Shown: in pieces, positions 1,403-60,312 of the stretch
How positions within the stretch are numbered: the first letter of the stretch is position 1
Layout: every line of letters starts with the position of its first letter
From: Leptolyngbya sp. PCC 6406
GTDB taxonomy: Bacteria; Cyanobacteriota; Cyanobacteriia; Phormidesmidales; Phormidesmidaceae
NCBI RefSeq assembly: GCF_000332095.2
Contig: NZ_KI913949.1
Coordinates: 3,618,596 to 3,682,595 of the forward strand
Length of the DNA stretch: 64,000 nt
Direction of reading: 5' to 3'
Made by a program: the position numbers and the translations under genes
Notes under the pieces: generated by a model
The model's database searches: none
What the model saw: the letters and a program-made list of their open reading frames with translations, nothing else
What the model was told of the DNA's origin: nothing

Positions 1403-1686
1403 TCTGTTCTCCAATATTTCTGCACCTTGCTCGTGCGATATACCGTAATCACCACAGGCGGATCGATCTGCTCATCCACCACGACCCGAATTAAATAGAC
1501 CCTTTCCACTTCCCCCTCCTCAACTGGCATCTGGATAGAGCGAGACTGGTAAATAGTGCGATTCTCTTGACCCGCTACCACTTGCTCTGGGCCGTTCAAG
1601 ATGCTTTCTACAATCACACGATGGATATCACGCCGATCCATCTCCTGTAGGGCATGGTTCGAGAAGACATAGGAAGTCAATCCCAT
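1399..1686 (-). CDS. DUF4258 domain protein (putative RelE-like toxin)
   Basis: A 95-residue protein with the DUF4258 pattern: FSNHALQEMDRRDI near the N-terminus, then ILNGPEQVV, a central strand region, and a terminal VITVYRTSKVQKYW. DUF4258 belongs to the RelE/ParE-like fold group and typically forms a two-gene unit with DUF2283. It overlaps hsdM by 10 bp at its 5' end and the DUF2283 gene by 4 bp at its 3' end, so the three are probably one transcript. Toxin activity is inferred from family and context only. Confidence 0.75.
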   Translation of the reverse strand: MGLTSYVFSNHALQEMDRRDIHRVIVESILNGPEQVVAGQENRTIYQSRSIQMPVEEGEVERVYLIRVVVDEQIDPPVVITVYRTSKVQKYWRTE

Positions 1687-4106
1687 ACCAACCCCATCTT
1701 CTTCAGGTGCTCCTCCACCCGGCTCGATAGCCCCTCCACCGTCTGCACCAGTTCCGGCAGCGGCTCCGCGTAGCGCTCCTCCAAATCCTTCACCCGGTTC
1801 GCCAACTGCTGCGTCACCCGCTCAATCTCCGCCGCCACGGCCCCCTTCAGCGTGGCCTGCCACTTGTCCTCCACCACCAGGGCTTTAATCTCCGCCTCGC
1901 TCAGCTTCGAGTACTGACCAAACACCGCTTTATCCAGCGCTTCGGTAGCGGCCTTCACCGCCTTCTTCATCGCCGCCTCCTGGTCAAACAGCTTTAGCAC
2001 CTCTGTCAGCACCTCCCGTTCTTCGGCAGCGTTGGGGTCGCGCTTAACCTCTCTTAGCCGGGCGGTGGCGGTGGCCTTGGTCACCTTGCCCGCGTCGGTC
2101 TGGGCCTCAGCTAATACCCCCTCCTCGCCGCCGTGCTCCTCCATCAGCGATTCCAGCTCCTGGCTCATGCCATCCAGGTCAGCCTGGAGTTCATCAATGT
2201 GGGCCTGCTTGTCGGCAAAGTACCGCGCCACCACCAGCCCCGGCGGTATCAGGTCGGCCCTGTACTTCTGCTTACCGATGATCAGATCCGGCGTTTCCTT
2301 CAGCTTTTCGCCCTTGACTACCACCAGCTCCCGCAGGGTCTTGCCCGCCGCCCAGCCATCCTGCACCAGCACATAGACATCGTCTTGCAGAGTCTCCGCC
2401 CAGTAGTCCATCAAAATTTGGTAGATGTCGTAGCGGTCTAACAGATCGGCCTCAGTAAAGCGGTGCAGCAAATCCTCCGAGAGCGTCGTGATCAGCGCCT
2501 TAGGCTTGTCGCCAATCGCAATCCCCATCAGCGCCTCCCGGTGGGCCTCATACCAGGCCGTGTAGAGCGCCAAACTCCGCTCCGCAAAGGCCGTAAATTC
2601 TGGATGACTCTTAATTATCAATTGACAATTATCAATTATTAATTGCGAATACCCCTCTCGCTCCGGCGCAAACAGATCCGCCCTCAGCTTCGGAAACACC
2701 CGCCAGTAGGCCCCCAGGGCATCCAGATCCCCATTGGGAATGCCGCCCCTGAGGTGGGCCGCCAAGTCGTGGAGGTCTTCTGGCTCGCTGGCGTCGATGT
2801 AGCGGGGGATGTTGAGGTTGTAGTCATTTTTCTCGATCTCCGCCAGGGGCACCAGGCGGCTGTAGCGCCCTAGCTCACTCTGGTGGTTAAACACATCCAC
2901 AATTTTGTGAATATCCTGGCTGCGCAGGCGGTTCTTGTTGCCGTCTTTCATCAAGCCCCGGCTGGCATCGACCATAAACAGGGCCGATCGCGCTGCCGCC
3001 CCCGCCTTATCCAGCACCAAAATGCAGGCCGGAATGCCGGTGCCGTAGAACAGGTTGGCGGGCAGACCGATGATGCCCTTGATGTAGCCCTGGCGCACCA
3101 GCGCCCGCCGAATCGTGGCCTCGGCATTACCGCGAAACAGCACCCCATGGGGCAAAATCACCGCCGCCTTGCCCGTACTGTTCAGCGACTTGAGGATGTG
3201 CAGCAAAAAGGCATAGTCGCCGTTTTTGTCCGGTGGTGCGCCGTATTCAAACCGCCCGTAGGGGTCTTCGGCCACATTCACCCCATTGCTCCACGACTTG
3301 TAGGAAAAGGGCGGATTTGCCACCGCAAAGTCAAAGGTCTTGAGGCTGCCGTCGTCGTTTTTCCAGTAGGGGTCTGAGAGGGTGTTGCCCCGCCAGATCT
3401 CGTGGCTGGGGTAGTTGTGCATAAACATATTCATCCGCGCCAAGGCCCAGGTGGAGTTATCCATCTCTTGGCCGTAGATGGTGAGGCCACGCGGGGCCAC
3501 GTCCGCCACCTTCAGCAGCAGCGACCCTGAGCCGCAGGTGGGGTCATAGACGGTTTCATCCTGGCGGGTCTCGGCGGTGATGCCCACCACCTGGGCCAAA
3601 ATCCGCGACACCTCGGCGGGGGTGTAGAACTGGCCCTTGCTCTTGCCCGACTCGGTGGCAAAGTGGCGCATCAGGTACTCGTAGGCATCGCCCAGCAAAT
3701 CATCGCCCTCGGCCCGGTTGGCGCTCAGATCTAGCCCCGCAAAAATGCCCACCAGGTTCGAGAGGCGATCCACCATCTCTTTGCCCCGACCCAGCTTGTC
3801 TTCGTTGTTGAAGTCGGCCACGTCGATCACGCCCTTGAGGTCGTTCTCTTCCGCCAGGGCGCTGATGATTTTGTTAATGCGATCGCCGATCTCTTTATTG
3901 CCCTTCAGCGCCACCATGTCCTGAAACGAGCCGCCCTCGGGCACCACAATGTCGGCGTAGGGGTCGCCGCCATATTTGTCGGAGACGTACTTCATGAACA
4001 GCAGGGTCAGCACATAGTCTTTGTACTGGCTGGCATCCATGCCGCCGCGCAGTTCGTCGCAACTGGCCCACAGGGAGCTATAGAGAGCAGTTTTTTTAAC
4101 GGCCAT
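1677..4106 (-). CDS. hsdM: Type I restriction-modification system methyltransferase subunit HsdM
   Basis: An 809-residue N6-adenine DNA methylase. Residues 8-150 form the HsdM N-terminal helical domain (LWASCDELRGGMDASQYKDYVLTLLF is the start of that region). Then come QFYTP near 159, the AdoMet-binding DPTCGSGSLLL near 188, and the catalytic NPPF at 264-267. It would methylate adenine in the target site as part of an M2S complex. The family is usually about 500-550 residues; the extra 250 residues at the C-terminus are charged and predicted coiled-coil (helical repeats around 620-800). No hsdS or hsdR is visible in the window; they may lie beyond base 1. About 12 residues near 488-500 are encoded by an inserted AT-rich repeat (see the repeat at 2611-2644). 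Confidence 0.93.
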   Translation of the reverse strand: MAVKKTALYSSLWASCDELRGGMDASQYKDYVLTLLFMKYVSDKYGGDPYADIVVPEGGSFQDMVALKGNKEIGDRINKIISALAEENDLKGVIDVADFNNEDKLGRGKEMVDRLSNLVGIFAGLDLSANRAEGDDLLGDAYEYLMRHFATESGKSKGQFYTPAEVSRILAQVVGITAETRQDETVYDPTCGSGSLLLKVADVAPRGLTIYGQEMDNSTWALARMNMFMHNYPSHEIWRGNTLSDPYWKNDDGSLKTFDFAVANPPFSYKSWSNGVNVAEDPYGRFEYGAPPDKNGDYAFLLHILKSLNSTGKAAVILPHGVLFRGNAEATIRRALVRQGYIKGIIGLPANLFYGTGIPACILVLDKAGAAARSALFMVDASRGLMKDGNKNRLRSQDIHKIVDVFNHQSELGRYSRLVPLAEIEKNDYNLNIPRYIDASEPEDLHDLAAHLRGGIPNGDLDALGAYWRVFPKLRADLFAPEREGYSQLIIDNCQLIIKSHPEFTAFAERSLALYTAWYEAHREALMGIAIGDKPKALITTLSEDLLHRFTEADLLDRYDIYQILMDYWAETLQDDVYVLVQDGWAAGKTLRELVVVKGEKLKETPDLIIGKQKYRADLIPPGLVVARYFADKQAHIDELQADLDGMSQELESLMEEHGGEEGVLAEAQTDAGKVTKATATARLREVKRDPNAAEEREVLTEVLKLFDQEAAMKKAVKAATEALDKAVFGQYSKLSEAEIKALVVEDKWQATLKGAVAAEIERVTQQLANRVKDLEERYAEPLPELVQTVEGLSSRVEEHLKKMGLVWD
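2611..2644. repeat. AT-rich repeat, copy 2, inserted in frame within hsdM
   Basis: Shares 25 identical bases with the intergenic copy at 1121-1145. Read through on the minus strand it encodes SQLIIDNCQLIIK inside HsdM without breaking the frame. It falls between the methylase domain region and the C-terminal helical region, a place where a linker insertion would be tolerated. Confidence 0.85.
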
Positions 4107-19125: not shown

Positions 19126-20901
19126 CTATTCTGGAAGGGGGGTAAATAAGTCTTCAGGAATATACTTAATAAATCGAGATGGCTTTCCTTTCCATGTTCT
19201 GGTGGTTTTTACTGCGCTAGTTAAATAAACAGCTTTACGTGCTCGTGTAACAGAAACATAGAAAATTCGACGTTCTTCTGCAAGATCTTTTTCATTACTG
19301 TGAGTTTTGTAAAAAGGAAGTACATCATCTTCAAGTCCAGCCAAGAAAACATAGTCAAATTCTCTTCCTTTAGATGCATGTCCTGACATAATCTGGACAG
19401 CACTATATCCTGCCAAACGATTTATAGCGTCAGATAGGTTTAACCCGAGAGACTGCGCTTCTTGCTTTAAATCATCAAGCATTTTATGTAAATTACTTAG
19501 CAATCGATTCGCCTCAGTGGAACTCCAGCATACATCTTGAATGAGAGTCTCCAGGCACACTATCTCGCAAATAGTCTCAACTTTTTCAGGAGAAGGTTGG
19601 AAATCCAGCTTTTCTAACAGACAGTCGCGAATTCTTATTGTAAGGTCTAGAGCATCTTTATCTCCAAGACGATTGGATATTCCTTCATCTTCAATAACAT
19701 CTAATACTTTTCGTAGTTGAATACTAGAATTCAGATCACAAGACAAAGACAGAATTGCCAAGCCTAAGGATATCTCCCATGAATCTTGGAAGTTTAATCG
19801 ACTCCTGTCAAACCAATGAATCGCAACCTTATCTAGCTCCGTCAATATTTCATTTACCCTTGCTCTATTTCGGGTAATAACTGCAATCTCACCCAAGGTT
19901 TGAGTTTTATTTTCGATTACCAATTGCGCAATCCACTGAGCTATCTGAACAGATTCAGCATTGTGAGTGGGAAACTCACGTTTATACAAAGATCCAAGAT
20001 TTTTTGACGCAGCTTGGATTTCCTTAGGTGCCCGATTGATTTCGAATCCGATTATAGCTTTAGCTGCATCAACGATAATTTGATCAGATCGAAAATTGGT
20101 TCCCAGAATGATTTTTTCGGCATTAAGTGATTTTTCTATTCTAGTGACATTCTCCCTGACTGCACCTCTAAATCTATAAATTGCTTGATCATCGTCTGCT
20201 ACTATGGTACTCCCAACAGCATCTTTTGCTAGAAGAGAGATCATTTCAAGTTGCTGAAGATCGCTATCTTGGAATTCATCAGCTATGATGTAACGGAAGA
20301 AGTTTTTAAAGAGCCTACCTGCTAAAACTGATTCTTGCAATAAGCGAACTGCTAATGCCACTAAATCTCCAAAGTCAAGGGCATTTCTTCGAACAAGCTC
20401 TTCTTGGTAATTTGTGTAAGCAATGCGTAATTTCAGATCTAAACTATCATCATTGTGCCCTGGATAAATCCCTTTTCTTTTGAGTCTTTCGAGTGTTGAT
20501 TTGAAATTACTAGATGAAACCCCCTTTAAACACTTGGATTTTACATTGCTAATAATCTCTTCTTGTACATCCTTTTCAAGTAGTTCAAAGTTCTCTTGGA
20601 TGCCGACATCACTTCCATAGCATCTTAACAAATAAGACCCAAATGCATGAAACGTCCCTATCCAAACCCGACTTAATTGTTGAAAACCTTTTGCGCGTAG
20701 TCGCGATCGTATTTCATTGGCAGCAGCATTAGTAAAAGTTATTGCCAGTAAACCATAGGGTTCCGGAATGATATTATTCTCAAAAATATAAGATATTTTC
20801 TCGATTATGGTGTGGGTTTTGCCACTCCCAGGTCCAGCGAGGACAACAGTATGTCCAGTTGTTTTATGAACAATATAATCTTGTTCTGGTGTAAGAGTCA
20901 T
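19126..20901 (-). CDS. gajB: UvrD-like helicase, GajB of a Gabija-type defence system
   Basis: A 591-residue superfamily 1 helicase. Motifs are: Walker A GPGSGKTHTI at 23-32, ITFTNAAANEIRSRL, Walker B IIADEFQDSDLQQLEMI near 215, GTNFRS, MSGHASKGREFDYVFLAGLEDDVLP and FYVSVTRARKAVYLT. It follows the OLD-family nuclease gene with a 5-bp gap, the gene pair and order that define Gabija (GajA plus GajB), where GajB senses DNA ends and activates GajA upon phage attack. It is about 100 residues longer than the reference GajB. It is AT-rich relative to neighbouring genes. Confidence 0.87.
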   Translation of the reverse strand: MTLTPEQDYIVHKTTGHTVVLAGPGSGKTHTIIEKISYIFENNIIPEPYGLLAITFTNAAANEIRSRLRAKGFQQLSRVWIGTFHAFGSYLLRCYGSDVGIQENFELLEKDVQEEIISNVKSKCLKGVSSSNFKSTLERLKRKGIYPGHNDDSLDLKLRIAYTNYQEELVRRNALDFGDLVALAVRLLQESVLAGRLFKNFFRYIIADEFQDSDLQQLEMISLLAKDAVGSTIVADDDQAIYRFRGAVRENVTRIEKSLNAEKIILGTNFRSDQIIVDAAKAIIGFEINRAPKEIQAASKNLGSLYKREFPTHNAESVQIAQWIAQLVIENKTQTLGEIAVITRNRARVNEILTELDKVAIHWFDRSRLNFQDSWEISLGLAILSLSCDLNSSIQLRKVLDVIEDEGISNRLGDKDALDLTIRIRDCLLEKLDFQPSPEKVETICEIVCLETLIQDVCWSSTEANRLLSNLHKMLDDLKQEAQSLGLNLSDAINRLAGYSAVQIMSGHASKGREFDYVFLAGLEDDVLPFYKTHSNEKDLAEERRIFYVSVTRARKAVYLTSAVKTTRTWKGKPSRFIKYIPEDLFTPLPE

Positions 20902-20906
20902 AAGAG

Positions 20907-22955
20907 TTACTCATTATCAGCAGCTTTCTCAACCTCTCGTCTAATCAACTCAGCATATTCTTGACAGCCACATCTTTCTATTGAATCAGCTACAGCTAGC
21001 CTGACTTCGTGCTGAATCAGTAAACTATCCTCCGACTTTCCTATAAATTGAATAAGGCTGTTAGGAGTTTCCTCTAATTGCATCTCTGCCAGAAAGCATG
21101 TCAATCTTTCAGAATAATTGGATAGTAGAGTTTCTCGAATTACATCATAGAAACCCGCAGTGCAAGCACGCTGCTCAAAATAATTATCCACAGGAATACC
21201 ACCTATACTTTCTAAAACAGCTTTTCGTATACTGTTAGCATAGCAATCAGGAACACGCTTCACTTCTGCTGCCGTCTCGGCAACAGCACGTGCTACTGGA
21301 ATTTTAAGATTGTCCCGTTTTGCTATGAAAGATGAAATCCCTACTGGATCTTTTCTGAGATTTTCTTTTTCCAAGTGTGAATCTAATGCTTTGGATTGTG
21401 AGTCATGTTCTGGATCTGCATCTTTAATTGCTTGAATTACAACACCTAAGTATCCACTTCTACATATCTCTTCCTCAAAACATTCGCTTGCTCCTATCCA
21501 ACCTACTTCACTTAAAGTTTTTTCGCGTTTTGTTTTTATTTCAGGTATATCTTGTTTGCATGCAAGACATGTATCCTTATCTATTAAGCCAGAATGATAT
21601 GCTGCATCAACTAGTTTATTTGTATTCTCTAGTATATCGGTGTCATACGTAACTATTACAGGAATTTTGAATTGATCACTTTGGCAGGATCTAATGATAA
21701 AGGAATACTGCTTATATCCACCTGCTGATACTATAGAGATCCCATCTCTATCCAAATCACAGCCCAATAATTCAGCAAAAGCTGGTAATGCAATTAATTC
21801 ACTTTCACCCTCAACAATTAGGATGGCTCTAGAGAAGAAAACCTCAGCTTTTCCCTCTCGCATAAAATGGCTTAATTCTTTGCGGGCAGTGCTCCCTAAC
21901 TTGCTGGGATCCAACTGATATGCTTGGGTTTCATCTGAGGCTATAGAACGCAAAAGAATTAAACTGAAGGGATCAGCATATTTAATAATTGAAGGAGAAT
22001 GCGTTGTGAGGAATATTGGTGCATTAATCTCAGCTAGATCCTTAAATAAGGAACGTTGTGCATGAGGGTGCAAATGGGCTTCTGGTTCCTCAACTGCTAA
22101 AATAGGAGTACCTCGATCTTCTGATGCTACACGATGGCGAAACATTGCTATCAAAGTCAGATTTTGTAATCCCGTTCCATGACGGGATATGTCTGACTGA
22201 ATAGAACCGACAGTTTTTCGTATGTTTAGTCGAAAACCTTGCACTAATCTGGATGTATCTTCGCCTGCAATGGCAACAAGTATTTCACTTTGTCCTCCAG
22301 GCATATATGGTGTCAATTGCTTAGTCAAGCCCTGAGCGAGCTTTGATATGTCTTGTCCCTTGCTCAGAGCATTATTGGCATTACAAAGATGACTTTTTAC
22401 ATCGTCTTGCACGTCTGTAAAGTCTATTTCACTTAACAATTGAGCAAGCAATCCACGTCCTGTTGCGCGTGTGTCACGTGTTGCGTCTCGAACTGCATCT
22501 AGGAAATAAAGTGGCACGGCACGAACCATTCGACGCGACATCGAAATAGGGTTGTTAGATCTTCCATTTGGTGGAAGTAGTTGAGTTATCCAGGTATAAA
22601 TTCCATCATCGTCCAGCTCAAATTTTCCCTCAATGGTGACAAAAGTCTCTTCACCATCTTGCTCTATACGCTCTCTAAAGCACGTTTCCACTTCAATGTG
22701 CTTTTGAAGGTCACCAAGTTCCACTTTTATTGAAAAATAGTTTTCTCCTGCCACCCTTGCATTGTCATTAATATCTTCTTGTGACAAAGCAAGTCTTAAG
22801 CTCTCTGCCTGTGGATCAAAGAGTAAACGGAGAGCATGAAGAAAATTAGATTTTCCAGCATTGTTTTCCCCAAGAATGACCGTTACACCCCTTGGGAATA
22901 TATCTACTCTACGTAAATTTCGAAAGTTTCGAATAGATATTTTGCGTATTTTCAT
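20907..22955 (-). CDS. gajA: OLD-family ATP-dependent nuclease, GajA of a Gabija-type defence system
   Basis: A 682-residue protein with an N-terminal ABC/SMC-type ATPase (Walker A GENNAGKSNFLHAL at 29-42, Walker B region LAVEEPEAHLHPHAQ, H-loop TTHSPSI) and a C-terminal TOPRIM nuclease domain (ILIVEGESELIALPAFAELLG near 378-398; later VIVTYDTDILENTNKL). In Gabija, GajA is the DNA-nicking nuclease whose activity is held off by nucleotides. It is the first gene of the pair, and the ATG at 22955 gives the usual KIRKISIRNFRNL start. It is longer than reference GajA (about 580), mainly after the TOPRIM domain. The AT-rich composition suggests acquisition. Confidence 0.87.
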   Translation of the reverse strand: MKIRKISIRNFRNLRRVDIFPRGVTVILGENNAGKSNFLHALRLLFDPQAESLRLALSQEDINDNARVAGENYFSIKVELGDLQKHIEVETCFRERIEQDGEETFVTIEGKFELDDDGIYTWITQLLPPNGRSNNPISMSRRMVRAVPLYFLDAVRDATRDTRATGRGLLAQLLSEIDFTDVQDDVKSHLCNANNALSKGQDISKLAQGLTKQLTPYMPGGQSEILVAIAGEDTSRLVQGFRLNIRKTVGSIQSDISRHGTGLQNLTLIAMFRHRVASEDRGTPILAVEEPEAHLHPHAQRSLFKDLAEINAPIFLTTHSPSIIKYADPFSLILLRSIASDETQAYQLDPSKLGSTARKELSHFMREGKAEVFFSRAILIVEGESELIALPAFAELLGCDLDRDGISIVSAGGYKQYSFIIRSCQSDQFKIPVIVTYDTDILENTNKLVDAAYHSGLIDKDTCLACKQDIPEIKTKREKTLSEVGWIGASECFEEEICRSGYLGVVIQAIKDADPEHDSQSKALDSHLEKENLRKDPVGISSFIAKRDNLKIPVARAVAETAAEVKRVPDCYANSIRKAVLESIGGIPVDNYFEQRACTAGFYDVIRETLLSNYSERLTCFLAEMQLEETPNSLIQFIGKSEDSLLIQHEVRLAVADSIERCGCQEYAELIRREVEKAADNE

Positions 22956-26098: not shown

Positions 26099-28243
26099 TC
26101 ATCTTCGGGGAATGATCTGGCCTTCGGGAGGATTTGGCGGTGGGGGTAAAACCGGGGCAATCCGGGTGGGAGAGAAGGCTTGTGCTCCCAAACTACGGTG
26201 GAGTGTAGCCCCGAGGATGCTGCCCAGAAGAGCAACGCTGCCAGGAAGAAGGGGCAACCAGCCCCCCTGGGTAAAGATCAGGATTGGGATGCCGATGGCC
26301 AGTCCCAAGCCGACTCCCGTTACTATTCCTAACCACAGCAGCCGTTGGCAGCGGCTGCCCCACAGTCCCCCTGCGGTGGACAGGGCGAGTATCCAGGCTA
26401 TTTCTGCCCCATCGGGCCAGGACCAGGGGAGACGCTGGCCATCGAGGGCGACTGCCAAAATTTGATGGGTCATGTGGGCGTGGAGCATGACACCTGCCAT
26501 GAGGTGATCCTGATCCGTTGTGGCCCCTCGGCTGTAGGGGGTATAGAACAGATCCTTGGCGGAGGCAGCGGTGGTGCCAATGAGAACAATGCGATCGCGA
26601 ATCCAGTCCGGCTCAAACTCCCCCGCCAGCAGATCCCCCAGACTGAGACGACGGGCCACAGTGGGGCCAGTGCCATAGCGCAGGGCTACCTGATATCCAG
26701 CATCATCAATGGCTTGATACCCGCCAAAGGTGCGAGAGAGGGGATAGAACGTGGTGCCCGCCAGGGCAAAGTAGGCGGAATTATCAGGGCTGGAGTCCAG
26801 GGTAATGTCCACCGCCGCCAGATATTGGAGCGCCAACCGTAGCGCAAAGGAATACATCACCGGGCTGTCAGCATCATTCCCGGTGCTGGCAAGCAGCAAG
26901 TTACGACGAATGACACCATCACTATCCACGATCAAATCATTAAAGCCCACCCGTTCCGGAGGCACCGACGCCGGAGGGGGAATGGTATCCTCAACGCGAT
27001 CCCCTAATTTTGTAATCGCCACCACATTGGGGGCATTCAGGGCCGTCAGCAGTTCCGCTTGTCCCTCTCCCTGGGGCAAATCTCGATGCAGGTCCAGCCC
27101 AATGACCCGAGGCTGGTGGATTTGGAGTTGGGCGATCGCCGACGCCACCGTCTGATCCGAGGGCGTCGGTTGCTGAAGTTGCTGGAGATCCGTCTCTGTA
27201 ATCTCCACCACGAGCAACCGGGGGTCCGGGCCAGTGGGAGTCTGTTGCTGGTGAAGCCGGTCGTACACCATTAATTCCAGAGGAACCCAGCCCCCCACCT
27301 GATGAATTCCCAGGACAATAGCCGTCATAGCCAGGGCAGCTATTCCCCCACCCCACGGGACGCGCTGGGTCAGGGAGGACGGTCCCAAACTGGTTTCCAT
27401 CCCGTCCCAGGACTCTGGAGCAGTGAGGGTTGGGAGAATATCCAGATCCGCCAGCGCGTCCTGGGCCGTCCGATAGCGACGATAGATTGAGGGTTGGGTA
27501 AGGCGGTTGAGCCAGATGCCTAGCCCAGGACTGAGGGGTGGAGCGGCACCCTGCCAAAGAATTTCCCCCGTGTCGGGATGCTCGGGCAAATCATTGGGAG
27601 GTCGCCCCGTCAGGGCTTGAATAGCGGTCATCCCCAAGGCATAGAGATCACTGCTATAGCGAGGACGCCCCGCCAATTGCTCAGCGGGGGCATAGCCCTG
27701 GGTACCGATACTGACGGTGGGCTGGCCTAAACTAGCGGTCTGGATCTCGGTAGTGATTTCCTTCACCGCCCCAAAGTCAATCAGCGCAATCTTGCCATCC
27801 TGCCGCCGCATCAGGTTGCTGGGTTTGATATCGCGGTGGATCACCTGCTGCTCGTGGATGAAGGCTAGGGTCGTGAGCACATCCCGCAGCAGCTCAATCA
27901 CCTCTGCTTCCGGCAGGGGTTGACCCGACCGCCAGAGATCACTGAGGGGCTGGCCCTCTATGTAGTCTTGGACCAGGTAAAACTCCCCCCCGGCTTCAAA
28001 AGCATCCAGCAATTGGGGAATACGATCGTGCTGGCCTAGACGACCCAACGCCTTAGCTTCGGCGTCAAACAGACGACGGGCCGTGACCATAAATTCTGGG
28101 GACTGACTGCCAGGAGTCAGGTGCTTGACAACACAAAGCCCATTGCCCTCCTGTTCATCCGCTGCTAGGTAGGTTTTACCAAACCCCCCCATGCCCAATA
28201 ACCGTAAAAGACGATAGCGCCCAACTAGAGTCGTCCCAACCAT
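26099..28243 (-). CDS. Serine/threonine protein kinase with C-terminal CHASE2 domain
   Basis: A 714-residue membrane kinase. The N-terminal kinase domain (about 8-270) has MGGFGKTYLA (P-loop), the lysine in CVVKH, HRDIKPSNLM near 137, IDFGAVKE near 156 and GTQGYAPAEQ. A membrane segment follows (about 303-322), then CHASE2 (about 325-600; YDRL, LVVEITETDL, IGLDLHRDL, VGFNDLIVDSDGVIRR, IVLIGTTA), and two or three closing membrane helices. CHASE2 is an extracytoplasmic sensor; the kinase would phosphorylate cytoplasmic partners. This layout is common in cyanobacteria. It is divergent from mscS. Confidence 0.93.
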   Translation of the reverse strand: MVGTTLVGRYRLLRLLGMGGFGKTYLAADEQEGNGLCVVKHLTPGSQSPEFMVTARRLFDAEAKALGRLGQHDRIPQLLDAFEAGGEFYLVQDYIEGQPLSDLWRSGQPLPEAEVIELLRDVLTTLAFIHEQQVIHRDIKPSNLMRRQDGKIALIDFGAVKEITTEIQTASLGQPTVSIGTQGYAPAEQLAGRPRYSSDLYALGMTAIQALTGRPPNDLPEHPDTGEILWQGAAPPLSPGLGIWLNRLTQPSIYRRYRTAQDALADLDILPTLTAPESWDGMETSLGPSSLTQRVPWGGGIAALAMTAIVLGIHQVGGWVPLELMVYDRLHQQQTPTGPDPRLLVVEITETDLQQLQQPTPSDQTVASAIAQLQIHQPRVIGLDLHRDLPQGEGQAELLTALNAPNVVAITKLGDRVEDTIPPPASVPPERVGFNDLIVDSDGVIRRNLLLASTGNDADSPVMYSFALRLALQYLAAVDITLDSSPDNSAYFALAGTTFYPLSRTFGGYQAIDDAGYQVALRYGTGPTVARRLSLGDLLAGEFEPDWIRDRIVLIGTTAASAKDLFYTPYSRGATTDQDHLMAGVMLHAHMTHQILAVALDGQRLPWSWPDGAEIAWILALSTAGGLWGSRCQRLLWLGIVTGVGLGLAIGIPILIFTQGGWLPLLPGSVALLGSILGATLHRSLGAQAFSPTRIAPVLPPPPNPPEGQIIPRR

Positions 28244-31507: not shown

Positions 31508-31676
31508 TAATGCTTGGCGGAAATAGGCTTACGATTCTGCCGCACCAGCCCAATATTTTCTGGTCCCCTCGCCCCCTGGGAGAGGGCTAGGGCTTCGGCG
31601 TGAGATCAGCCGAACGGTGAGGGGCCGAGGTGTGCCACGATGGAACGGTCAGAGTATTTACGCCGCACCGCCCTAG
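31504..31676. mobile_element. CTAG-bounded MITE, copy A (173 bp)
   Basis: It starts CTAGTAATGCTTGGCGGAAA and ends ATTTACGCCGCACCGCCCTAG, imperfect terminal inverted repeats. The interior GGTCCCCTC...GAGAGGGCTAGGG...GTGAGGGGCCGAG...CACGATGGAACGGTCAG matches copies B and C. It carries an extra small hairpin (CTTCGGC...GCCGAA). Both ends overlap TAG stop codons of the flanking convergent genes. IS630-type transposases favour CTAG targets; the family is inferred from that. Confidence 0.85.
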
Positions 31677-32461
31677 GCCATGAGTATTTCCGCCACCTTG
31701 CCAAAGATATGGCTAAGGGGGTGGTCGGGAAACCGAAGACAAAAAATATCACTGCTCCCGAGCTGGATCATTTCCTCCGTCAAAGGCAGAATCGCCGCCA
31801 CCGGGGCTCCATAGGTGCTTTCGACTTCCGCTTTCAGAGCATCAAAATCAAAGGAGGAGAGGGCCTTATTCACCATGATTAGCATCTTAGGCACCTCCAA
31901 TCGGCGAGCAATATCCACCGTGACGGCAGTGCCCTGAAAATCTTGGCGATCGGGCCGCATAATCAACAACAGCACGTCGGAGATAGTTATAGAGAGCAGC
32001 GTCTCTTCATTGAGACCAGGATGGGTATCAATAAACAGATAGTCCAGGTCAAGGCGGTGGATGAGTTCCTGAAAGCCGTCGTTGAGGAGGCCCACATCGT
32101 AGCCTTCCCGCAGAACTCGGGCAATTTCCCCGGCCCGCAGGCTAGAGGGAATTAGGTAAATGGCACTTCGATGGCCCATTTGGGCCGGTCTCTGACCATC
32201 GCTGCCCACACCATGGAGCACAGAGGTGACATCATAGGCCGCTTCTTCAACAGAGCAGCGTCCCCACAAATAGTCATTTAGCGATAGCGCCATTTTGCTT
32301 TCATCAAAGCCAAACAGCACGTGAATCCCCGGAGATTGAATATCCGTATCCACAATGCCAACCCGATGGCCATGGCGCGCCACCGTAGCCGCCAAATTTG
32401 CAGTCGTATTCGACTTGCCAGTACCGCCCCTAAAGGAGTGAACAGACACGACTTTTACCAT
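31673..32461 (-). CDS. ParA/MinD-family ATPase with intact deviant Walker A
   Basis: A 262-residue ATPase: FRGGTGKSNTTANLAATVAR at 10-29 is the deviant Walker A with both lysine-position features (G-G-T-G-K-S); then VDTDIQSPGIHVLFG (Walker A'), and YLFIDTHPGLNEETLLSI (Walker B). This is a full ParA/MinD fold that should dimerise on ATP, bind membranes or DNA and position a cargo. Its partner may be the paralogue just upstream (32611-33675), with which it shares STYxxPVxxILPLxE and IFCLxxPDHPL. The stop TAG coincides with the CTAG end of a MITE. The cargo is unknown. Confidence 0.88.
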   Translation of the reverse strand: MVKVVSVHSFRGGTGKSNTTANLAATVARHGHRVGIVDTDIQSPGIHVLFGFDESKMALSLNDYLWGRCSVEEAAYDVTSVLHGVGSDGQRPAQMGHRSAIYLIPSSLRAGEIARVLREGYDVGLLNDGFQELIHRLDLDYLFIDTHPGLNEETLLSITISDVLLLIMRPDRQDFQGTAVTVDIARRLEVPKMLIMVNKALSSFDFDALKAEVESTYGAPVAAILPLTEEMIQLGSSDIFCLRFPDHPLSHIFGKVAEILMA

Positions 32462-32610
32462 GGCTCACCTGCTGTTCTCTCTGACGTGACGATGACTAAA
32501 TGGAAGGAACTTGGCCGCTGTGGGAAGCAATGGGAGGGGAACTGCCTTAGTTTTACCACGATGCTTCAACTTCCCTCGGGGGTCTTGGATGGATTGGGCA
32601 CTTTCATAAT

Positions 32611-33675
32611 TCAGAGAGAATCGCGATCGGGCAAAGGACTTTGGTAATAAACCGTACCCTGAACATTGTCCTGGAAGAGCCATCCCCGATCAATGAGCTC
32701 CTGCAGAGCCACCGACACCGCATGGGGATCTCCCTCCACCTGGGCCAACACCTCAGCCGGAGGCAAAGCACCCCGACGAATGACCGCCATCAGCACCTGC
32801 CGTTGCAGGGGAGACAGATCCAGAATGCCAAAAAACGGTTTACCCTGGGATTTCCCAAAGGGTTTAGCCAGAATTCTGGCTAAACCCGATGCCGACGATG
32901 GCGGCGTCACCGCCTGGGCGAGGGTTGCCATGGCCTGAGTGAGGGGATGATCGGGGTAATGGAGGCAAAAGATGCCGCCGCTGGCCAATTGCACCATCTG
33001 CTCACTCAGAGGGAGAATAACCCCAACGGGCAGATTGTAGGTACTCTCAACCTTTTGCTTCACCTCATCCTCCACCAAATCAGGTAAGACCTGGCTAGGC
33101 ACAAGCCAAATATCACGATCACCTAACTTCTTAAGCACCTCTAGAATGACGGCAGTACGCTGAAAGTCATAGGTGTCAATTTGGAGCATCAGCACCACCG
33201 TATCCGCTAGGGCTAGGCTCAGAAGACTGTCATCGTCTAGGGTGGGCTGGGTGTCAAAAATCAAACAAGTGAGGTGCAGATCCCGTTGTAGTTGAGAGAG
33301 TGCTTCACTTGGGGTGCTCACACTGTAATGGTGCTGAAGATCTAGGAGATGGGCACTAATGCCACCAGGCTGGGGTAACGTCGGCACCATATAAATTCCG
33401 GGTTGACGCCGCTGGGGGGCAGTACCATAGTTCAGAGTTTGTGCCTGCATCACCCGAGGCTGGGCCGGATCTAACTGAAGCCAGGAGTAGGTGCCGGGTA
33501 CCTGTACCGCTGTTTCGTCTAGACCAAAAAGAACACGAATACCCCCGCCCCGAGGATCGGTATCTAGAAGCCCCACCCGCTGCCCCTGTTGCATCAATAA
33601 AACAGCAAGATTGGCCGCTAGGTGGGAGCATCCAGCGGCATGGCGGCAGGCGTGAAGCGCAATGATACTGGGCAT
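32611..33675 (-). CDS. ParA-like paralogue with degenerate P-loop plus C-terminal winged helix
   Basis: A 354-residue protein. Residues 1-265 align with the neighbouring ATPase (LLDTDPRGGGIRVLFGLDE, LIFDTQPTLDDDSLLSLAL, VESTYNLPVGVILPLSEQMV). However, the P-loop reads CRHAAGCSHLAANLAV, lacking both the signature lysine and the GKS/T, so ATP hydrolysis is unlikely. About residues 285-345 (LSPLQRQVLMAVIRRGALPPAEVLAQVEGDPHAV) look like a winged helix-turn-helix, as in DNA-binding regulators. It precedes the intact ATPase by 150 bp on the same strand. Inference: a pseudo-ATPase regulatory or DNA-linking partner. Confidence 0.85.
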   Translation of the reverse strand: MPSIIALHACRHAAGCSHLAANLAVLLMQQGQRVGLLDTDPRGGGIRVLFGLDETAVQVPGTYSWLQLDPAQPRVMQAQTLNYGTAPQRRQPGIYMVPTLPQPGGISAHLLDLQHHYSVSTPSEALSQLQRDLHLTCLIFDTQPTLDDDSLLSLALADTVVLMLQIDTYDFQRTAVILEVLKKLGDRDIWLVPSQVLPDLVEDEVKQKVESTYNLPVGVILPLSEQMVQLASGGIFCLHYPDHPLTQAMATLAQAVTPPSSASGLARILAKPFGKSQGKPFFGILDLSPLQRQVLMAVIRRGALPPAEVLAQVEGDPHAVSVALQELIDRGWLFQDNVQGTVYYQSPLPDRDSL

Positions 33676-33868: not shown

Positions 33869-34900
33869 TTACAGGCTGGTTAAATCTGTCGTTTTCACGA
33901 AGGCTTCAAACTGAGCCATGAGTTCCGGATTGCGCCAGCCCTGGCGCACCTCTCCCCACATGATCTCCAATGCTTTGGCGATGGAAAAGGCGGGTTTATA
34001 GGGACGCTCGTTGGTGAGGGCGTCGTAGATGTCGATGATTTGGAACACCTGGACCAGGAGAGGAATGCTATTGCCGACCAAGCTATCGGGGTAGCCACTG
34101 CCGTCCCAGCGTTCATGGTGATGGCGAATAATGGGCAGGACACCGTGCATGGTGCGGAGGGGACGGCAGATATTTTCCCCTAGGAAAACATGTTGCTGCA
34201 TGATGGCCTGCTCGGTGACGGTGAGGGGACCCGTCTTGAGCAAGACTGCGTCGGGAATGCCCACCTTGCCGATGTCATGGAGGTAACTGGCCCACATCAG
34301 GTCTCGGATCTGGGAGGCGGGCAGATCCAGGTATTCGCCGAAGGTGCGGGCCAGTTGGGAGAGGCGTTCGCAGTGGTCCCCCGTGTGGGGATCGCGACTC
34401 TCGACGGTGCGGGCGATGGAAAATAGGGCTTCGCTGGCATGGTCGAGGTCTTCGTTCAGGCGCTTTTGGTGAATTAGCGATCGCACTCGAGCGGAAAGTT
34501 GAAGTTGGTCAAAGGGCTTGGTGAGAAAATCATCCCCCCCCGCCTCAATGCCCTTGAGACGGGCGCGGCGATCGTCGAGGGCCGTGACAAAGATGACGGG
34601 GATAAGGCGCGTGTTTTCATTGCGCTTGAGTTGGCGGCAAACCTCAAAGCCGTCCATTCCTGGCATACTCACGTCTAGGAGCACAATGTCGGGGGTTTGG
34701 CTGGCGACCCGCTCTAGGGCTTGGTACCCGTCCCCAGCTTCCAGCACAACGTACCCCTCTACCGACAGCAGGGCCACCGCTGTCATCCGACTGGGAGGAT
34801 TATCATCCACCACCAAGACTTTGGCAGGGTCGGAACCGGAGTAATTCACGGTGAGATAACGTTGAGCTTGGCTGACCACAGGCATGGAGACGCGATTCAT
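33869..34900 (-). CDS. Response regulator with HD-GYP phosphodiesterase domain
   Basis: A 343-residue protein. The REC domain (about 28-145) has VVDDNPPS, phospho-acceptor LLDVSMPGMDG, FVTALDD and TKPFD. The HD-GYP domain (about 155-335) has DPHTGDHCERLS, LHDIGKVGIPD, RHHHERWDGSGYPD and DIYDALTNERPYK, all metal and substrate motifs present. It should hydrolyse cyclic di-GMP when phosphorylated. The ATG at 34900 was chosen over the GTG at 34906. It lies upstream of the ParA-like pair, on the same strand but 190 bp away. No histidine kinase is adjacent. Confidence 0.92.
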   Translation of the reverse strand: MNRVSMPVVSQAQRYLTVNYSGSDPAKVLVVDDNPPSRMTAVALLSVEGYVVLEAGDGYQALERVASQTPDIVLLDVSMPGMDGFEVCRQLKRNENTRLIPVIFVTALDDRRARLKGIEAGGDDFLTKPFDQLQLSARVRSLIHQKRLNEDLDHASEALFSIARTVESRDPHTGDHCERLSQLARTFGEYLDLPASQIRDLMWASYLHDIGKVGIPDAVLLKTGPLTVTEQAIMQQHVFLGENICRPLRTMHGVLPIIRHHHERWDGSGYPDSLVGNSIPLLVQVFQIIDIYDALTNERPYKPAFSIAKALEIMWGEVRQGWRNPELMAQFEAFVKTTDLTSL

Positions 34901-35050
34901 AAACACACAGCCCTATTCAGCGATCGTCGCTTAGGTTCCGGGTAACCCTTGAGGAGCATTTGAGGGATTGACGGAAAATAATGTAGGTTCGACTGGTTTA
35001 ACTTAGCTTACTTTACTAACCTTAGCGATAAAGGCTATGGCTGGTTAGGG

Positions 35051-37695: not shown

Positions 37696-38754
37696 CTAGC
37701 GGACAGTGCCGCGCAGGGCTTCGGTATCGACAGCGGGGAGTAGATAGAGGCGCAGCAGGTGACCTGCGATCGCAAGTTGCCGGGGCAATTTCCGCAGTCC
37801 CTTCAACCACTGGGGTTGATTGGTTTGATCGATGTGGCTTAGGGCCAGGTTGTGGTCGGCGCAGCGTTGCAGGCGGTCATAAAAGGCGGGATGATCCACA
37901 TTCAAGCAGGTGGGGAAAGCTCGCCCTGCCGTGGCGTTGGTTTCCCGAATCACTGCCCGATCAAAGTCTATGGGGTCTAACCCCAACATGCGGTAGAACT
38001 CAGCCCGTTCGTGGACGGTCAGGGCATGGGTGGCGAAAACCGTGAGCAAAAAGAAGCGACTCCAGAGCCGCCCCTGCCAGGTTTGCCACATTTGGGGTTG
38101 CGATCGCAGTAGGGCCTTAAAGATATCGCCGTGGCGGTTTTCATCCTGACACCAACTCTCGAAGTAGTTGAACAGGGGATAGAAATTGTTTTCAGGATGC
38201 TGCTCCAGGTGGCGAAAGATGATGATATAGCGCCAGTAGCCAATCTTTTCCGACAGGTAAACCGCATAGATAATCCATTCCACCGGGAAAAAGGTATAGG
38301 TGCGCTTTCGGGTCAGTTTTTGTAGATCCAAGGTGATATGAAAGTCCCCCATGGCCTTGTTGATAAACCCCGCATGACGCGCCTCATCCCGTGCCATCAG
38401 GTGAAAGATTTCCGCCAGTAGGGGATTCCGTCCCTTGAGCTTGCGGGACAATTCCTTGAATAGGATAAACCCAGAAAACTCTGACACACAGGATCGTTCC
38501 AGGTAATCAATGAAGGCCCGTCTCTCGGCCCCCTGAATGTGATCCCAATTGCCCTTGAAGTCTTCATTACGGGTGAAGTGATAGCGGTTATAGTCCGCCC
38601 GCATCTCTGCCACCATGGCCTGGAGCGCTTCTTCCTCTCGGGAAAGGTCGAGGCCAGCCGCTTTATCAAAGTCAGTGGTGTAGAAGCGGGGAGTCAGGAT
38701 GTTCTCTGTGATCGCAGCTTTGACAACGGGGGATGGCGTCAGGGTTGAGGTCAT
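37696..38754 (-). CDS. acsF: Mg-protoporphyrin IX monomethyl ester (oxidative) cyclase, AcsF/ChlA
   Basis: A 352-residue diiron enzyme that closes the isocyclic ring in chlorophyll synthesis. It has EFSGFILFKELSRKL, RDEARHAGFINKAM and WCQDENRHGDIFKALL (metal-ligand helices). In Synechocystis there are two isoforms; chlAII (sll1874) forms with ho2 and hemN a low-oxygen-induced operon under the MarR-type activator ChlR. Here the gene is divergent from ho and hemN across a 377-bp AT-rich region, so it is probably the ChlAII-type isoform. The sequence alone does not prove the isoform. The same arrangement with a desaturase occurs in some Leptolyngbya. Confidence 0.93.
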   Translation of the reverse strand: MTSTLTPSPVVKAAITENILTPRFYTTDFDKAAGLDLSREEEALQAMVAEMRADYNRYHFTRNEDFKGNWDHIQGAERRAFIDYLERSCVSEFSGFILFKELSRKLKGRNPLLAEIFHLMARDEARHAGFINKAMGDFHITLDLQKLTRKRTYTFFPVEWIIYAVYLSEKIGYWRYIIIFRHLEQHPENNFYPLFNYFESWCQDENRHGDIFKALLRSQPQMWQTWQGRLWSRFFLLTVFATHALTVHERAEFYRMLGLDPIDFDRAVIRETNATAGRAFPTCLNVDHPAFYDRLQRCADHNLALSHIDQTNQPQWLKGLRKLPRQLAIAGHLLRLYLLPAVDTEALRGTVR

Positions 38755-39131
38755 GGCGTATAGGGTAATGACTTAAATGGTTTGGGAATAGTTTGAGGTG
38801 GTTTTGGATCATGGTATAGCCCACAGATCTTTTTTACATCAAGACGGTATTTCCAGGGACAAGAATTCACATTTTTGAAATCTAAACCCCAAAATTTTAC
38901 TTTGATTCACCTAGTGACGCCAAGGTTCCCAGCAATCTCAGGCTTAAGTAATGGGAAAATTGTAAAGAGAAATATTTTACTTTTATAGCCTTATAAATTC
39001 CAATAAAAGGAGTCATAAACTTCTGATTTAAGGGTTGACAAACCAAGCAATCGTTCTAGAGTAAGTAAAGCTTTTGTTTTGAATAGTGACCGCTTTTTAG
39101 ATGAATAATTGATAGCAAGAGAGGTATCACC
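38755..39131. promoter_or_regulatory. Divergent promoter region between acsF and ho
   Basis: 377 AT-rich bases with no gene. On the plus strand TTGACA (39035) with TAGAGT 16 bp later is a possible promoter for ho, and GAGAGGTATCACC precedes its ATG. If this is the low-oxygen cluster, a ChlR-type activator site should be here, but I could not recognise one. Confidence 0.5.
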
Positions 39132-39866
39132 ATGACTGATTTAGCCCAACAATTACGCCTGGGTACTCAACAGGCCCATACCACCGCCGAGAACAGCCTA
39201 TTTATGAAATGTTTTTTGGATGGCATCGTGGTGGAAAGTACTTTCCGTAAGCTGCTGAGTAATCTCTACTGGGTTTATCGCACCCTAGAGACCGCCATGG
39301 AGGAGTATCGAGACCATCCCATCGTGGGGCCAATGGTGTTCCCAGAAATCCAACGCACGGCCAAGCTCCAAGAGGATTTGCAGTTCTACTACGGGGAAGC
39401 TTGGCGGGATGCTATTGGCCCCGAAATTACCCCAGCAGGCCAAGTCTATGTGACTCGGCTGCAACAGGTGACGCGGGAAAACCCGGCGCTGCTGGTGCCC
39501 CACAGCTATGTGCGCTATCTGGGAGATCTCTCTGGGGGGCAAGGGTTAAAGGGCATTGTCCGTAAAGCGCTGAATCCACCGCCGGATCAGGGTACGGGCC
39601 TCCATGAGTTTGACCTGCTGCCTACACCGGAGGCGAAGCAAACCTTTAAGGAGCGTTATCGAGCGGCCCTGAATCAACTCCCGGTGGATGAGGTACTGGC
39701 GGAGCAAATGGTGCTGGAAGCCCAGCGGGCCTTCCATCTCAACTGTGCGGTCATGGCATCCCTGGATGGGGAGATGGTGTTGGCGCTGGAGCCCGCAACC
39801 CTACAGCGGCTTCAGGATGCGCATCGCCCCGGCAGCACCCAAGGGGCTCCTGCTATGGCCTCCTAG
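39132..39866 (+). CDS. ho2: Heme oxygenase (HO-2-like by context)
   Basis: A 244-residue biliverdin-producing heme oxygenase. The proximal-histidine helix LRLGTQQAHTTAENSLFMKC lies at 8-27 and the distal helix RYLGDLSGGQGLKGI near 129-143. Length and motifs match cyanobacterial HO-1/HO-2. It would cleave heme to biliverdin, CO and iron for phycobilin synthesis. It lies upstream of hemN and divergent from acsF, the order of the low-oxygen operon, so HO-2 is the better guess. A short Ala/Ser-rich tail follows. Confidence 0.92.
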   Translation: MTDLAQQLRLGTQQAHTTAENSLFMKCFLDGIVVESTFRKLLSNLYWVYRTLETAMEEYRDHPIVGPMVFPEIQRTAKLQEDLQFYYGEAWRDAIGPEITPAGQVYVTRLQQVTRENPALLVPHSYVRYLGDLSGGQGLKGIVRKALNPPPDQGTGLHEFDLLPTPEAKQTFKERYRAALNQLPVDEVLAEQMVLEAQRAFHLNCAVMASLDGEMVLALEPATLQRLQDAHRPGSTQGAPAMAS

Positions 39867-39928
39867 GACACAGATCTGGGGGCTGTAAGGGGGCTGTAAC
39901 AGCAAAAGAAGGGACAGGCCAGAGGCCG

Positions 39929-39967
39929 ATCCCACAAGGGTAAAGTCACAGCCCTCTCTTGTGGGAT
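39929..39967. promoter_or_regulatory. Perfect 10-bp inverted repeat between ho and hemN
   Basis: ATCCCACAAG (39929-39938) pairs exactly with CTTGTGGGAT (39958-39967), with a 19-nt loop. It lies about 60 bp after the ho stop and 83 bp before hemN. It could stabilise or attenuate the transcript. No U-run follows. Confidence 0.55.
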
Positions 39968-40049
39968 AGCCGTCCCGGCTGTCCTGGTTGCAATAGTCCC
40001 TTGAGCAGTCGCTTTGAATATTCGCAAACTCTGCAACCCAATTACCATA

Positions 40050-41537
40050 ATGTCCACCTTTACTGACTTCGGGGGAAAAACTACTGCGATCGCGGCTTTC
40101 CCTACCCCCTTTCCGGACCTAGGGCCTGCTCAGCAGACCCATGGCCAGCCCGATTTTCAATTCGATGCAGATTGGTTCCATCCCGACCTGCTACAGAAAT
40201 ACGATCGCCCCATTCCCCGTTACACCAGCTATCCCCCGGCCACGGAGCTGAAGGCAGAATTTGACCCCCAGGGGTTTGAGCAGGCCATTGCCCAGGGGAA
40301 CCACCATCAGCGGCCCCTGTCCCTCTATGTCCATGTCCCCTTCTGCGATCGCCCCTGCTACTTTTGTGGCTGCAACGTCATCATCACCCAGCAGCGCGAT
40401 CGCGCCACCCGCCCCTACCTGAAGGCCCTAGAGCGCCATATCGAGGTCATGGCCCAGGGGGTCGATCGCCAACGTCCAGTCACCCAACTCCATTGGGGCG
40501 GCGGCACCCCCAACTATCTGGACCTAGGGGAAATGGAGCAATTATGGACAATGCTCTCCCGCCGGTTTTCCTTTGCCCCAGGGGCGGAATGCTCCATTGA
40601 GGTGAACCCCCGCCTAGTCACACGGGAGATGATTCTGCACCTGCGGCAGCTCGGTTTTAACCGCATCAGCTTTGGGATTCAGGACTTTGATCCCCGTGTC
40701 CAAGCGGCGGTGAATCGGGTGCAGCCGGAGGCGATGCTATTCCAGGCCATGGACTGGATTCGGGAGGCGGGATTTGACAGTGTCAATGTGGATTTGATCT
40801 ACGGACTCCCCTACCAAACCCCGGCCACCTTCCAGCGCACCATTGAGAAAACCCTGCACCTAGACCCCAACCGCATTGCCGTCTTTAACTTTGCCTATGT
40901 GCCCTGGATGAAACCGATTCAGCGGCGCATCAACGCCGATGCCCTGCCCTCTCCAGCAGCCAAGTTGGAAATGTTCCACACCACCATTGACCAGTTGCAG
41001 CAGGGAGGATATCGGTTCATTGGCATGGATCACTTTGCCAAGCCGACAGATGAACTGGCGATCGCCCAATCCCAGGGTAAACTCCACCGCAATTTTCAGG
41101 GCTACACCACCCAAGGGGACGCGGAACTGCTGGGGTTTGGGGTGACTGCCATCAGCATGTTCCAGGATGTCTATACCCAGAATGCCAAGGGATTGCAGGC
41201 TTTTTACCGGGCGGTAGATCAAGGGGTAATGCCCCTAGAGCGCGGGGTGCGACTGTCCCAGGATGACCAGATTCGGCGCACCCTGATTCAGGAGCTAATG
41301 TGCCATTTTTACCTGTCCAAGGCCAAGATTGCCCGCTGCTATGGGCTCGACTTTGACGCTTATTTTGCCCGTGAACTGCGGGATCTATGGCCGCTCCAGG
41401 GAGATGGGCTGCTCCAGGTGAGCCCCACAGAGATTACCGTCACCCCCATCGGTCGTTTGCTGATTCGCAACATCGCGGCGGTGTTTGACCCCTATTTACG
41501 CCATCGTCAGCAGGGGCAATTCTCCCAGTCCCTTTAG
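40050..41537 (+). CDS. hemN: Oxygen-independent coproporphyrinogen III oxidase HemN (radical SAM)
   Basis: A 495-residue radical SAM enzyme: VPFCDRPCYFCGCNVIITQQ contains the CxxxCxxC cluster motif near 113-120. Then HWGGGTPNYL, SIEVNPRLVTREMI, NRISFGIQDFDPRVQ and VNVDLIYGLPYQT follow. It converts coproporphyrinogen III to protoporphyrinogen IX without O2. The ATG at 40050 is chosen; a TTG at 40014 gives a longer form. The C-terminal HemN domain (about 400-490) is complete. It is downstream of ho. Confidence 0.95.
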   Translation: MSTFTDFGGKTTAIAAFPTPFPDLGPAQQTHGQPDFQFDADWFHPDLLQKYDRPIPRYTSYPPATELKAEFDPQGFEQAIAQGNHHQRPLSLYVHVPFCDRPCYFCGCNVIITQQRDRATRPYLKALERHIEVMAQGVDRQRPVTQLHWGGGTPNYLDLGEMEQLWTMLSRRFSFAPGAECSIEVNPRLVTREMILHLRQLGFNRISFGIQDFDPRVQAAVNRVQPEAMLFQAMDWIREAGFDSVNVDLIYGLPYQTPATFQRTIEKTLHLDPNRIAVFNFAYVPWMKPIQRRINADALPSPAAKLEMFHTTIDQLQQGGYRFIGMDHFAKPTDELAIAQSQGKLHRNFQGYTTQGDAELLGFGVTAISMFQDVYTQNAKGLQAFYRAVDQGVMPLERGVRLSQDDQIRRTLIQELMCHFYLSKAKIARCYGLDFDAYFARELRDLWPLQGDGLLQVSPTEITVTPIGRLLIRNIAAVFDPYLRHRQQGQFSQSL

Positions 41538-59286: not shown

Positions 59287-60312
59287 ATGCAGACCTATGA
59301 CAGTGCAGACGTAACCTATGACTGGTGGGCGGGCAATGCCCGTTTTGCGGAGATGTCTGGGTTATTCATTGCCGCCCACGTGGCCCAAGCTGCCCTAATC
59401 ACCCTATGGGCCGGTTCATTCACCCTATTTGAGCTGTCCTGGTACGACCCCAGTATCCCCATGGGAGAACAGGGCCTGATTTTGTTACCCCACCTAGCCA
59501 CCCTGGGCTGGGGCCTGGGGGACGGTGGCCAAGTGGTGGATACCTATCCCTATTTCGTCGTTGGTGTAATACATCTGATTTCCTCAGCAGTGCTGGGGGC
59601 GGGTGCCCTGTTCCATGCCTTCAAGGCTCCGCCGGATCTCAAGGCCGCTTCAGGGCGAGCCCGGATGTTCCACTTTGAATGGGAAAATCCAGCCCAATTG
59701 GGGATGATTTTGGGCCATCACCTGCTGTTCTTGGGGGCAGGAGCCCTGCTGTTGGTGGCAAAGGCCACCCTCTGGGGAGGGCTCTATGACTCAGTGAGCC
59801 AAACCGTCCGCACGGTGCAGCCGACCCTCGATCCCCTGGTGATCTATGGCTACCAAACCCACTTTGCCAGCATCAACAGTTTGGAAGATCTGGTTGGGGG
59901 TCATGTTTTTGTGGGCCTACTGCTGATTGGTGGGGGTGTTTGGCACATTCTGGTGCCGCCGCTACCCTGGGCCAAAAAGGTTCTTAGCTTTTCCGGCGAA
60001 GCCATTTTGTCCTATTCCCTGGGGGGCATTGCCCTCGCGGGCTTTGTTGCTGCCTACTTCTGCGCAGTCAATACCCTGGCCTACCCAGTGGAATTCTATG
60101 GCCCGCCGCTAGAGGTGAAGTTGGGCGTTGCCCCTTACTTTGCCGATACGGTGACCTTGCCCCTCGGAGCCCACACCTCCCGTTGTTGGCTGGCCAATGC
60201 CCACTTCTTCTTAGCCTTCTTCTTTCTCCAGGGTCATTTATGGCACGCCCTGCGCGCCATGGGATTTGATTTTCGCCGGGTGGAGCAAGCCTTAAGCGTG
60301 GCTGAATCCTAA
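59287..60312 (+). CDS. IsiA/Pcb-family (CP43-like) chlorophyll-binding antenna protein
   Basis: A 341-residue protein with six membrane helices, the size and layout of IsiA (342) without the CP43 lumenal loop. The start [20 protein letters not shown] and the end [20 protein letters not shown] match the family; the helix histidines that bind chlorophyll (for example [33 protein letters not shown]) are present. It would bind chlorophyll a around photosystem I or II in the thylakoid. It is more divergent than typical IsiA, so it might be another Pcb-type paralogue. The iron-stress link is inferred. Confidence 0.9.

Follow-up and report, generated by a model that had tools for sequence, protein, structure and literature searches.

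In the 64,000-nt stretch of Leptolyngbya sp. PCC 6406 DNA that we analysed (the window), a ParA/MinD-family ATPase gene lies beside a gene for a ParA-like protein that is predicted to be dead for ATP and carries a fused winged helix-turn-helix (wHTH), which raises the question of what such a pair does. Both open reading frames were found on the minus strand where the first-pass annotation had placed them: the intact ATPase (262 aa) at 31673-32461, and its partner (354 aa, hereafter the deviant), assigned by open reading frame, domain and paralogue searches, at 32611-33675. Read in the direction of transcription, the first gene encodes a response regulator that has an HD-GYP domain (33869-34906, minus strand; Response_reg 1.9e-30, HD_5 4.4e-35, with the HD and GYP motifs present); the deviant, a 149-bp gap and the intact ATPase come after it. 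In a whole-genome search the deviant aligned with the intact ATPase over residues 2-258 at 35% identity (E=5e-43), and judged from this alignment the two are paralogues, far above chance, as had been proposed. The motifs FRGGTGKSNTTANLA and CRHAAGCSHLAANLA quoted for them match the letters, and the PVxxILPL and IFCLxxPDHPL blocks taken as the mark of their kinship are indeed in the pair, but they are family-wide, with similar blocks in two additional intact paralogues that the genome encodes (57% and 54% identity). A triosephosphate-isomerase-like gene adjoins one of these copies, and a glutaminase gene and a HAMP protein gene adjoin the other; the deviant is single-copy. Simple promoter and terminator scans around the pair found sites in numbers similar to those in shuffled sequence, and an Rfam search at the locus gave no match.

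The two proteins differ at the ATP site. The intact protein, which matches PF10609 (1.1e-15), AAA_31 (2e-14) and minD_arch (1.7e-22), has the P-loop RGGTGKSN (residues 11-18; 32408-32431, minus strand), the switch II motif DTHPG (residues 145-149; 32015-32029, minus strand) and NK at the presumed base-recognition site, a role taken from the family (residues 198-199; 31865-31870, minus strand). The corresponding stretches of the deviant, on the same strand, read CRHAAGCSH (residues 10-18; 33622-33648), DTQPT (residues 141-145; 33241-33255) and SQVLP where NKxL is expected (33082-33096). We aligned 43 family rows, comprising 24 intact proteins, a group of nine from other taxonomic families with RHG in place of RGG (the RHG group), and ten deviants from the taxonomic family of the host genome (the host family), including its own. 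The P-loop and switch II features of the intact protein hold in 24/24 intact rows, and K16, the switch-II glycine and N198 are each present in all 24 and in none of the ten deviants, in which K16 is replaced by cysteine (9/10) or alanine (1/10). The switch aspartates are retained in these ten, switch II included (10/10), with one D38 replaced by glutamate. In the RHG group the lysine is present in 5/9, the switch-II glycine in 5/9 and the asparagine in 9/9; since this group is intermediate, the deviants appear as the end of a graded series.

The claim that a copy with the ATP-site residues stands beside a copy without them is thus borne out by the losses of lysine, glycine and asparagine, and the deviant is predicted from these residues no longer to bind or hydrolyse ATP. 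The proposed contrast between an intact and a destroyed P-loop holds for RGGTGKSN against CRHAAGCSH, but the "intact" loop has arginine for the signature lysine. This arginine is invariant (43/43 rows), a trait of the whole family, so the P-loop of the intact protein is not the textbook KGGxGK[ST] form; the arginine may substitute for the signature lysine. In the ParA tree the host-family deviants cluster together. Repeated independent losses of the lysine, hinted at by its different replacements (C/A, Q and R), were considered and not adopted, as a single origin was not rejected (p-AU 0.49). The P-loop of the deviant (33622-33648, minus strand) also reads as CxHx3CxH, kept in 9/10 host-family rows, a possible metal or redox site.

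Structure prediction agrees with this division. The AF2 model of the intact protein has a pLDDT of 91, and its top solved folds are MinD 1hyq, FleN 5j1j and Soj; together with the P-loop GK[ST] and the switch aspartates, this places it in the ParA/MinD superfamily. The model of the deviant (pLDDT 87.8) has a low-confidence linker at residues 262-272 and retains the ParA fold, with MinD 1hyq and Soj as the best solved folds of its N-terminal domain, in addition to a well-formed winged helix. Because the fold is present and the P-loop lysine is lost, the deviant is best described as a predicted pseudo-ATPase of the superfamily. The dN/dS values of 0.06-0.08 in the three closest deviant pairs indicate that close relatives are under purifying selection, and these values, with the deviant motifs common to the family, rule out decay to a pseudogene. 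Frame changes break the deviant orthologues in two genomes (G018 and G036; L049:8470-9575 and L050:4739-5551), whose assemblies are fragmented, and may be sequencing errors.

The C-terminal helix-turn-helix that had been read from the deviant is a winged helix. Residues 286-346 (32638-32820, minus strand) match MarR_2 when searched alone (5.5e-6), and the model has three helices (289-301, 306-312 and 317-329) and a beta wing (333-344), with pLDDT mostly about 90-96 over residues 289-344. One winged helix resembled DUF742 (1.3e-5); the value was 0.0048 in one other and the rest were unlisted, and we read this as generic wHTH similarity. The same domain occurs in a wider setting. With a wHTH profile, a stand-alone wHTH open reading frame of about 90-130 aa was found adjoining an intact ParA gene in several cyanobacterial families, an arrangement frequent across Cyanobacteriia. 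This reading frame usually comes directly downstream, the two genes overlapping slightly or lying up to about 100 bp apart, but is upstream in one genome (G082). Fusions of the wHTH to a ParA with the lysine (G458, G342 and G541/G542) and to a ParA with glutamine for the lysine (G519 and G536) were also found. The pair would be a lineage-specific form of a widespread cyanobacterial ATPase and winged-helix module. No description of the pair or of the module, and no described function, was found in open-licence papers, in keeping with the first-pass annotation, and the module is apparently undescribed.

The genes next to this module suggest, from their domain content, a role in signalling. An icfG-type cluster (STAS, GlgX-like, STAS, HATPase and GAF-SpoIIE genes) lies directly upstream in one genome of the host family (G016) and in one of another family (G519). 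According to PMC12329169, the icfG cluster of Synechocystis is involved in carbon regulation and sigma-factor partner switching. The likeness to that system lies in the STAS, HATPase and SpoIIE-phosphatase genes, which directly precede the ParA and wHTH genes of G016 and the fused gene of G519; the difference is that no such cluster adjoins the pair in the window, and the passages of PMC12329169 consulted make no mention of a ParA as part of the pathway. A cNMP-binding protein recurs as a neighbour in seven genomes, and an Asp/Glu racemase, an SDF symporter and a solute-binding protein also recur. Neighbouring Cache/HAMP membrane proteins lack an output domain and share a C-terminal motif, IEID..K followed by FFQ or YFQ; proteins of the IEID...FFQ type occur near three different ParA subtypes (L173:10363-11892, L104:13151-14251 and L014:5444-6607). 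The HD-GYP regulator, to which the pair had been tied, is absent beside the other orthologue loci inspected and was seen only here, so it was rejected as a partner and probably lies outside the module. Elsewhere in the window (26099-28243, minus strand), a gene encodes a serine/threonine kinase with a CHASE2 sensor domain in the same protein.

Does the winged helix read DNA? The MinD-like ATPase FleN acts through its binding to a regulator, and in the FleN-FleQ type the ATPase binds an AAA+ activator. The intact protein resembles MinD and FlhG (FleN) in fold (1hyq, TMt 0.86; FleN 5j1j), in the P-loop GK[ST] and in the switch motifs. It differs in the arginine for the signature lysine, in scoring below the cut-off of the curated NCBIfam MinD models (minD_arch, 79.8 bits vs 201.75) and in its partner, which is a wHTH and not MinC/MinE or FleQ. 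A transcription switch, a reading near to that of the first-pass annotation, in which the winged helix binds DNA under the control of the intact ATPase as FleQ is controlled by FleN, would accord with FleN being among the best fold matches, with the icfG-type sigma-factor partner-switch cluster linked in two other genomes, and with the closeness of the wHTH profile to ArsR/MarR regulators, the nearest solved winged-helix sequences being DNA-binding ArsR-type regulators (HlyU, 5e-6). However, the net charge of the recognition helix is negative or zero in all 30 homologues (mean -2.3), compared to +1 in a single control, an ArsR-like open reading frame in the window, and TIR-WD40 proteins and another large protein have the same domain at their N-terminus. 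Because the recognition helix is never net positive (n=30), DNA binding is doubtful, the earlier claim that the winged helix reads DNA is probably wrong as far as these sequences tell, and we regard the transcription switch as somewhat unlikely. With moderate confidence, we take the winged helix from its sequence and distribution to be an adaptor domain.

An adaptor could also dock cargo. In a McdAB/ParAB-like positioning system, the ATPase would form gradients on the nucleoid or membrane and the wHTH would be a cargo adaptor that docks through a C-terminal tryptophan. The module shares with McdAB a gene order in which a small partner with a C-terminal tryptophan comes after the ParA-type ATPase, the MinD/Soj fold fits this reading, and McdA type 1 likewise lacks the signature lysine (PMC8262871). 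In addition, 25/30 winged-helix partners have a tryptophan in the last 15 residues, like the cargo-docking tryptophan of McdB (PMC11321042). In contrast, this tail is missing in the deviant of the host genome, in those of G008, G011 and G018 and in the partner of G201, the partner domain is a folded wHTH and not a disordered, Q-rich, coiled-coil protein such as McdB (PMC8262871), the ATPase has no mid-protein extension, and McdA comes up among the fold matches only at rank 37, as a distant one. We consider such positioning improbable. Since the tryptophan tail kept by most partners has been lost from it, the deviant may make contacts that differ from those of the other winged-helix partners.

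Whether the two genes belong together was examined in 59 genomes of the host family, in which an orthologue of the intact protein was counted at 77% identity or more. The deviant is present in 12/59 genomes and a close intact orthologue in 15/59. The intact orthologue accompanies the deviant in all 12, with 81-90% identity to the protein in the window; three genomes have the intact orthologue (77-81% identity) without the deviant, and the deviant without the intact orthologue was found in 0/59. The association (Fisher 4e-10, 59 genomes, uncorrected for ancestry) may reflect ancestry, as the co-occurring genomes are related. The two genes are adjacent in 5/12 (the host genome, G018, G011, G009 and G007), with the adjacency in G007 inferred across a contig break. 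Conservation of the pair, on which the first-pass annotation had made its proposal depend, is therefore seen as co-existence, in 12/12 genomes, but not as general adjacency. In G008 and in genus g2, the deviant comes after a cyclase gene (adenylate/guanylate cyclase domain) and hisIE; in G011 the cyclase, hisIE, deviant and intact genes stand in a single row; and in the host genome the orthologues of the cyclase gene and of hisIE are grouped at a site about 150 kb distant that lacks the deviant. Such a pattern would be expected if an older common arrangement had been broken up in different ways. When 386 genomes of the phylum, a sample with few members of the host family, were searched with a strict DNA motif, which misses sequences with other letters, exact matches appeared in two host-family genomes only, and a contig scan yielded a single intact relative from cyanobacteria and a single weak match in Pseudomonas. 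That the two proteins have no joint function, the deviant evolving independently and being adjacent at times through descent from a tandem duplication, would suit a pair unlinked in 7/12 genomes, a deviant with its own conserved cyclase-hisIE neighbours in eight genomes, and its faster evolution (42-52% vs 89-90% identity for the intact protein, host genome against G007, G011 and G008), but it is the least probable of these readings, as the deviant never occurs without the intact orthologue, adjacency is retained in three genera and close deviant pairs are under strong purifying selection.

The preferred reading, that the winged helix is a protein adaptor in a signalling switch, leads to the other carriers of the domain. 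The wHTH profile matches TIR-WD40 proteins (about 1050 aa) at their N-terminus, and the host genome encodes one of them (E=1.9e-23; L249:7956-11096, plus strand, 1046 aa). A 912-aa protein of the same genome (L250:5861-8599, minus strand), which has no Pfam match, also has this winged helix N-terminally. Orthologues of the wHTH-TIR protein are present in 11/12 genomes with the deviant and in 3/47 others (Fisher 1.5e-8, ignoring ancestry), a count in which the G018 match covers part of the wHTH and the G007 match lies on a short contig. The small domain is thus found on regulators and effectors: it is fused to ParA, stands by itself, or is part of a TIR-WD40 protein or of the 912-aa protein. 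Inactive MinD/ParA-like domains have been predicted in VMAP and related conflict systems (Kaur et al. 2020, PMC7159879), which make use of TIR effectors and cNMP cyclases as well. The pair resembles these in its predicted-inactive ParA-like domain and in the cNMP cyclases and TIR effectors found in both, and differs in that here the dead domain is accompanied by a paralogue that looks active; no MoxR, vWA or VMAP gene was recognised on inspection of the neighbours read. The effector-associated adaptor domains (EADs; PMC7159879, PMC8195603) are likewise small, non-catalytic and common to regulator and TIR effector, but the domain here is a winged helix and was matched to no described EAD.

Several other features of the window were recorded. 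A PADLOC match of the intact protein to PDC-M28B (6.6e-10) covers only the N-terminal P-loop region and was not counted as defence membership. Adjacent genes for a UvrD-type helicase and an OLD/TOPRIM ATPase (19126-22955, minus strand; GajB 3e-87, GajA 1e-79) are likely a Gabija anti-phage system on the strength of these matches, and a type I restriction-modification methyltransferase (1677-4106, minus strand) has a full-length PADLOC match with an E-value of 0. Genes for a rubrerythrin-fold AcsF-like oxidase, a heme oxygenase and a radical-SAM HemN-like protein lie together at 37696-41537 and presumably resemble the low-oxygen tetrapyrrole cluster of cyanobacteria. The open reading frame at 59287-60312 (plus strand) resembles an IsiA/Pcb chlorophyll-binding protein by eye and is a candidate.

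Taken together, these results lead us to favour, tentatively, a switch made of an ATPase and a dead partner that bears the adaptor, which would act in signalling and not in DNA segregation, as a lineage-specific form of the ATPase and wHTH module. By analogy with its family, the intact protein would be a nucleotide switch, a dimer when bound to ATP and a monomer in the ADP or apo state. In many lineages its partner would be the small separate winged-helix protein; here a paralogous ParA domain would carry the winged helix, with the fold kept and ATP binding and hydrolysis predicted lost from the missing residues. Because the fold is retained, the deviant could dock to the active ATPase as a permanent half or act as a brake on it. 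The winged helix would serve mainly as a protein-protein adaptor and not as a DNA reader, and the state of the switch would be passed to other carriers of the domain, of which the wHTH-TIR-WD40 protein is the best candidate in view of the shared domain and the co-occurrence. The input is probably second-messenger or envelope signalling, judged from the neighbouring genes. The fuller scheme of a ParA-controlled alarm, with an ATPase switch, a wHTH docking module, an ATP-dead brake or scaffold and a TIR-WD40 effector, we hold to be unlikely.

Positioning is the role for which ParA/MinD ATPases are chiefly known. If the switch reading is true, the family would reach into regulated signalling linked to TIR effectors, through a conserved ParA branch in which a switch and a mobile adaptor domain stand beside second-messenger and partner-switch genes and which, in one lineage, would have an ATP-dead twin.
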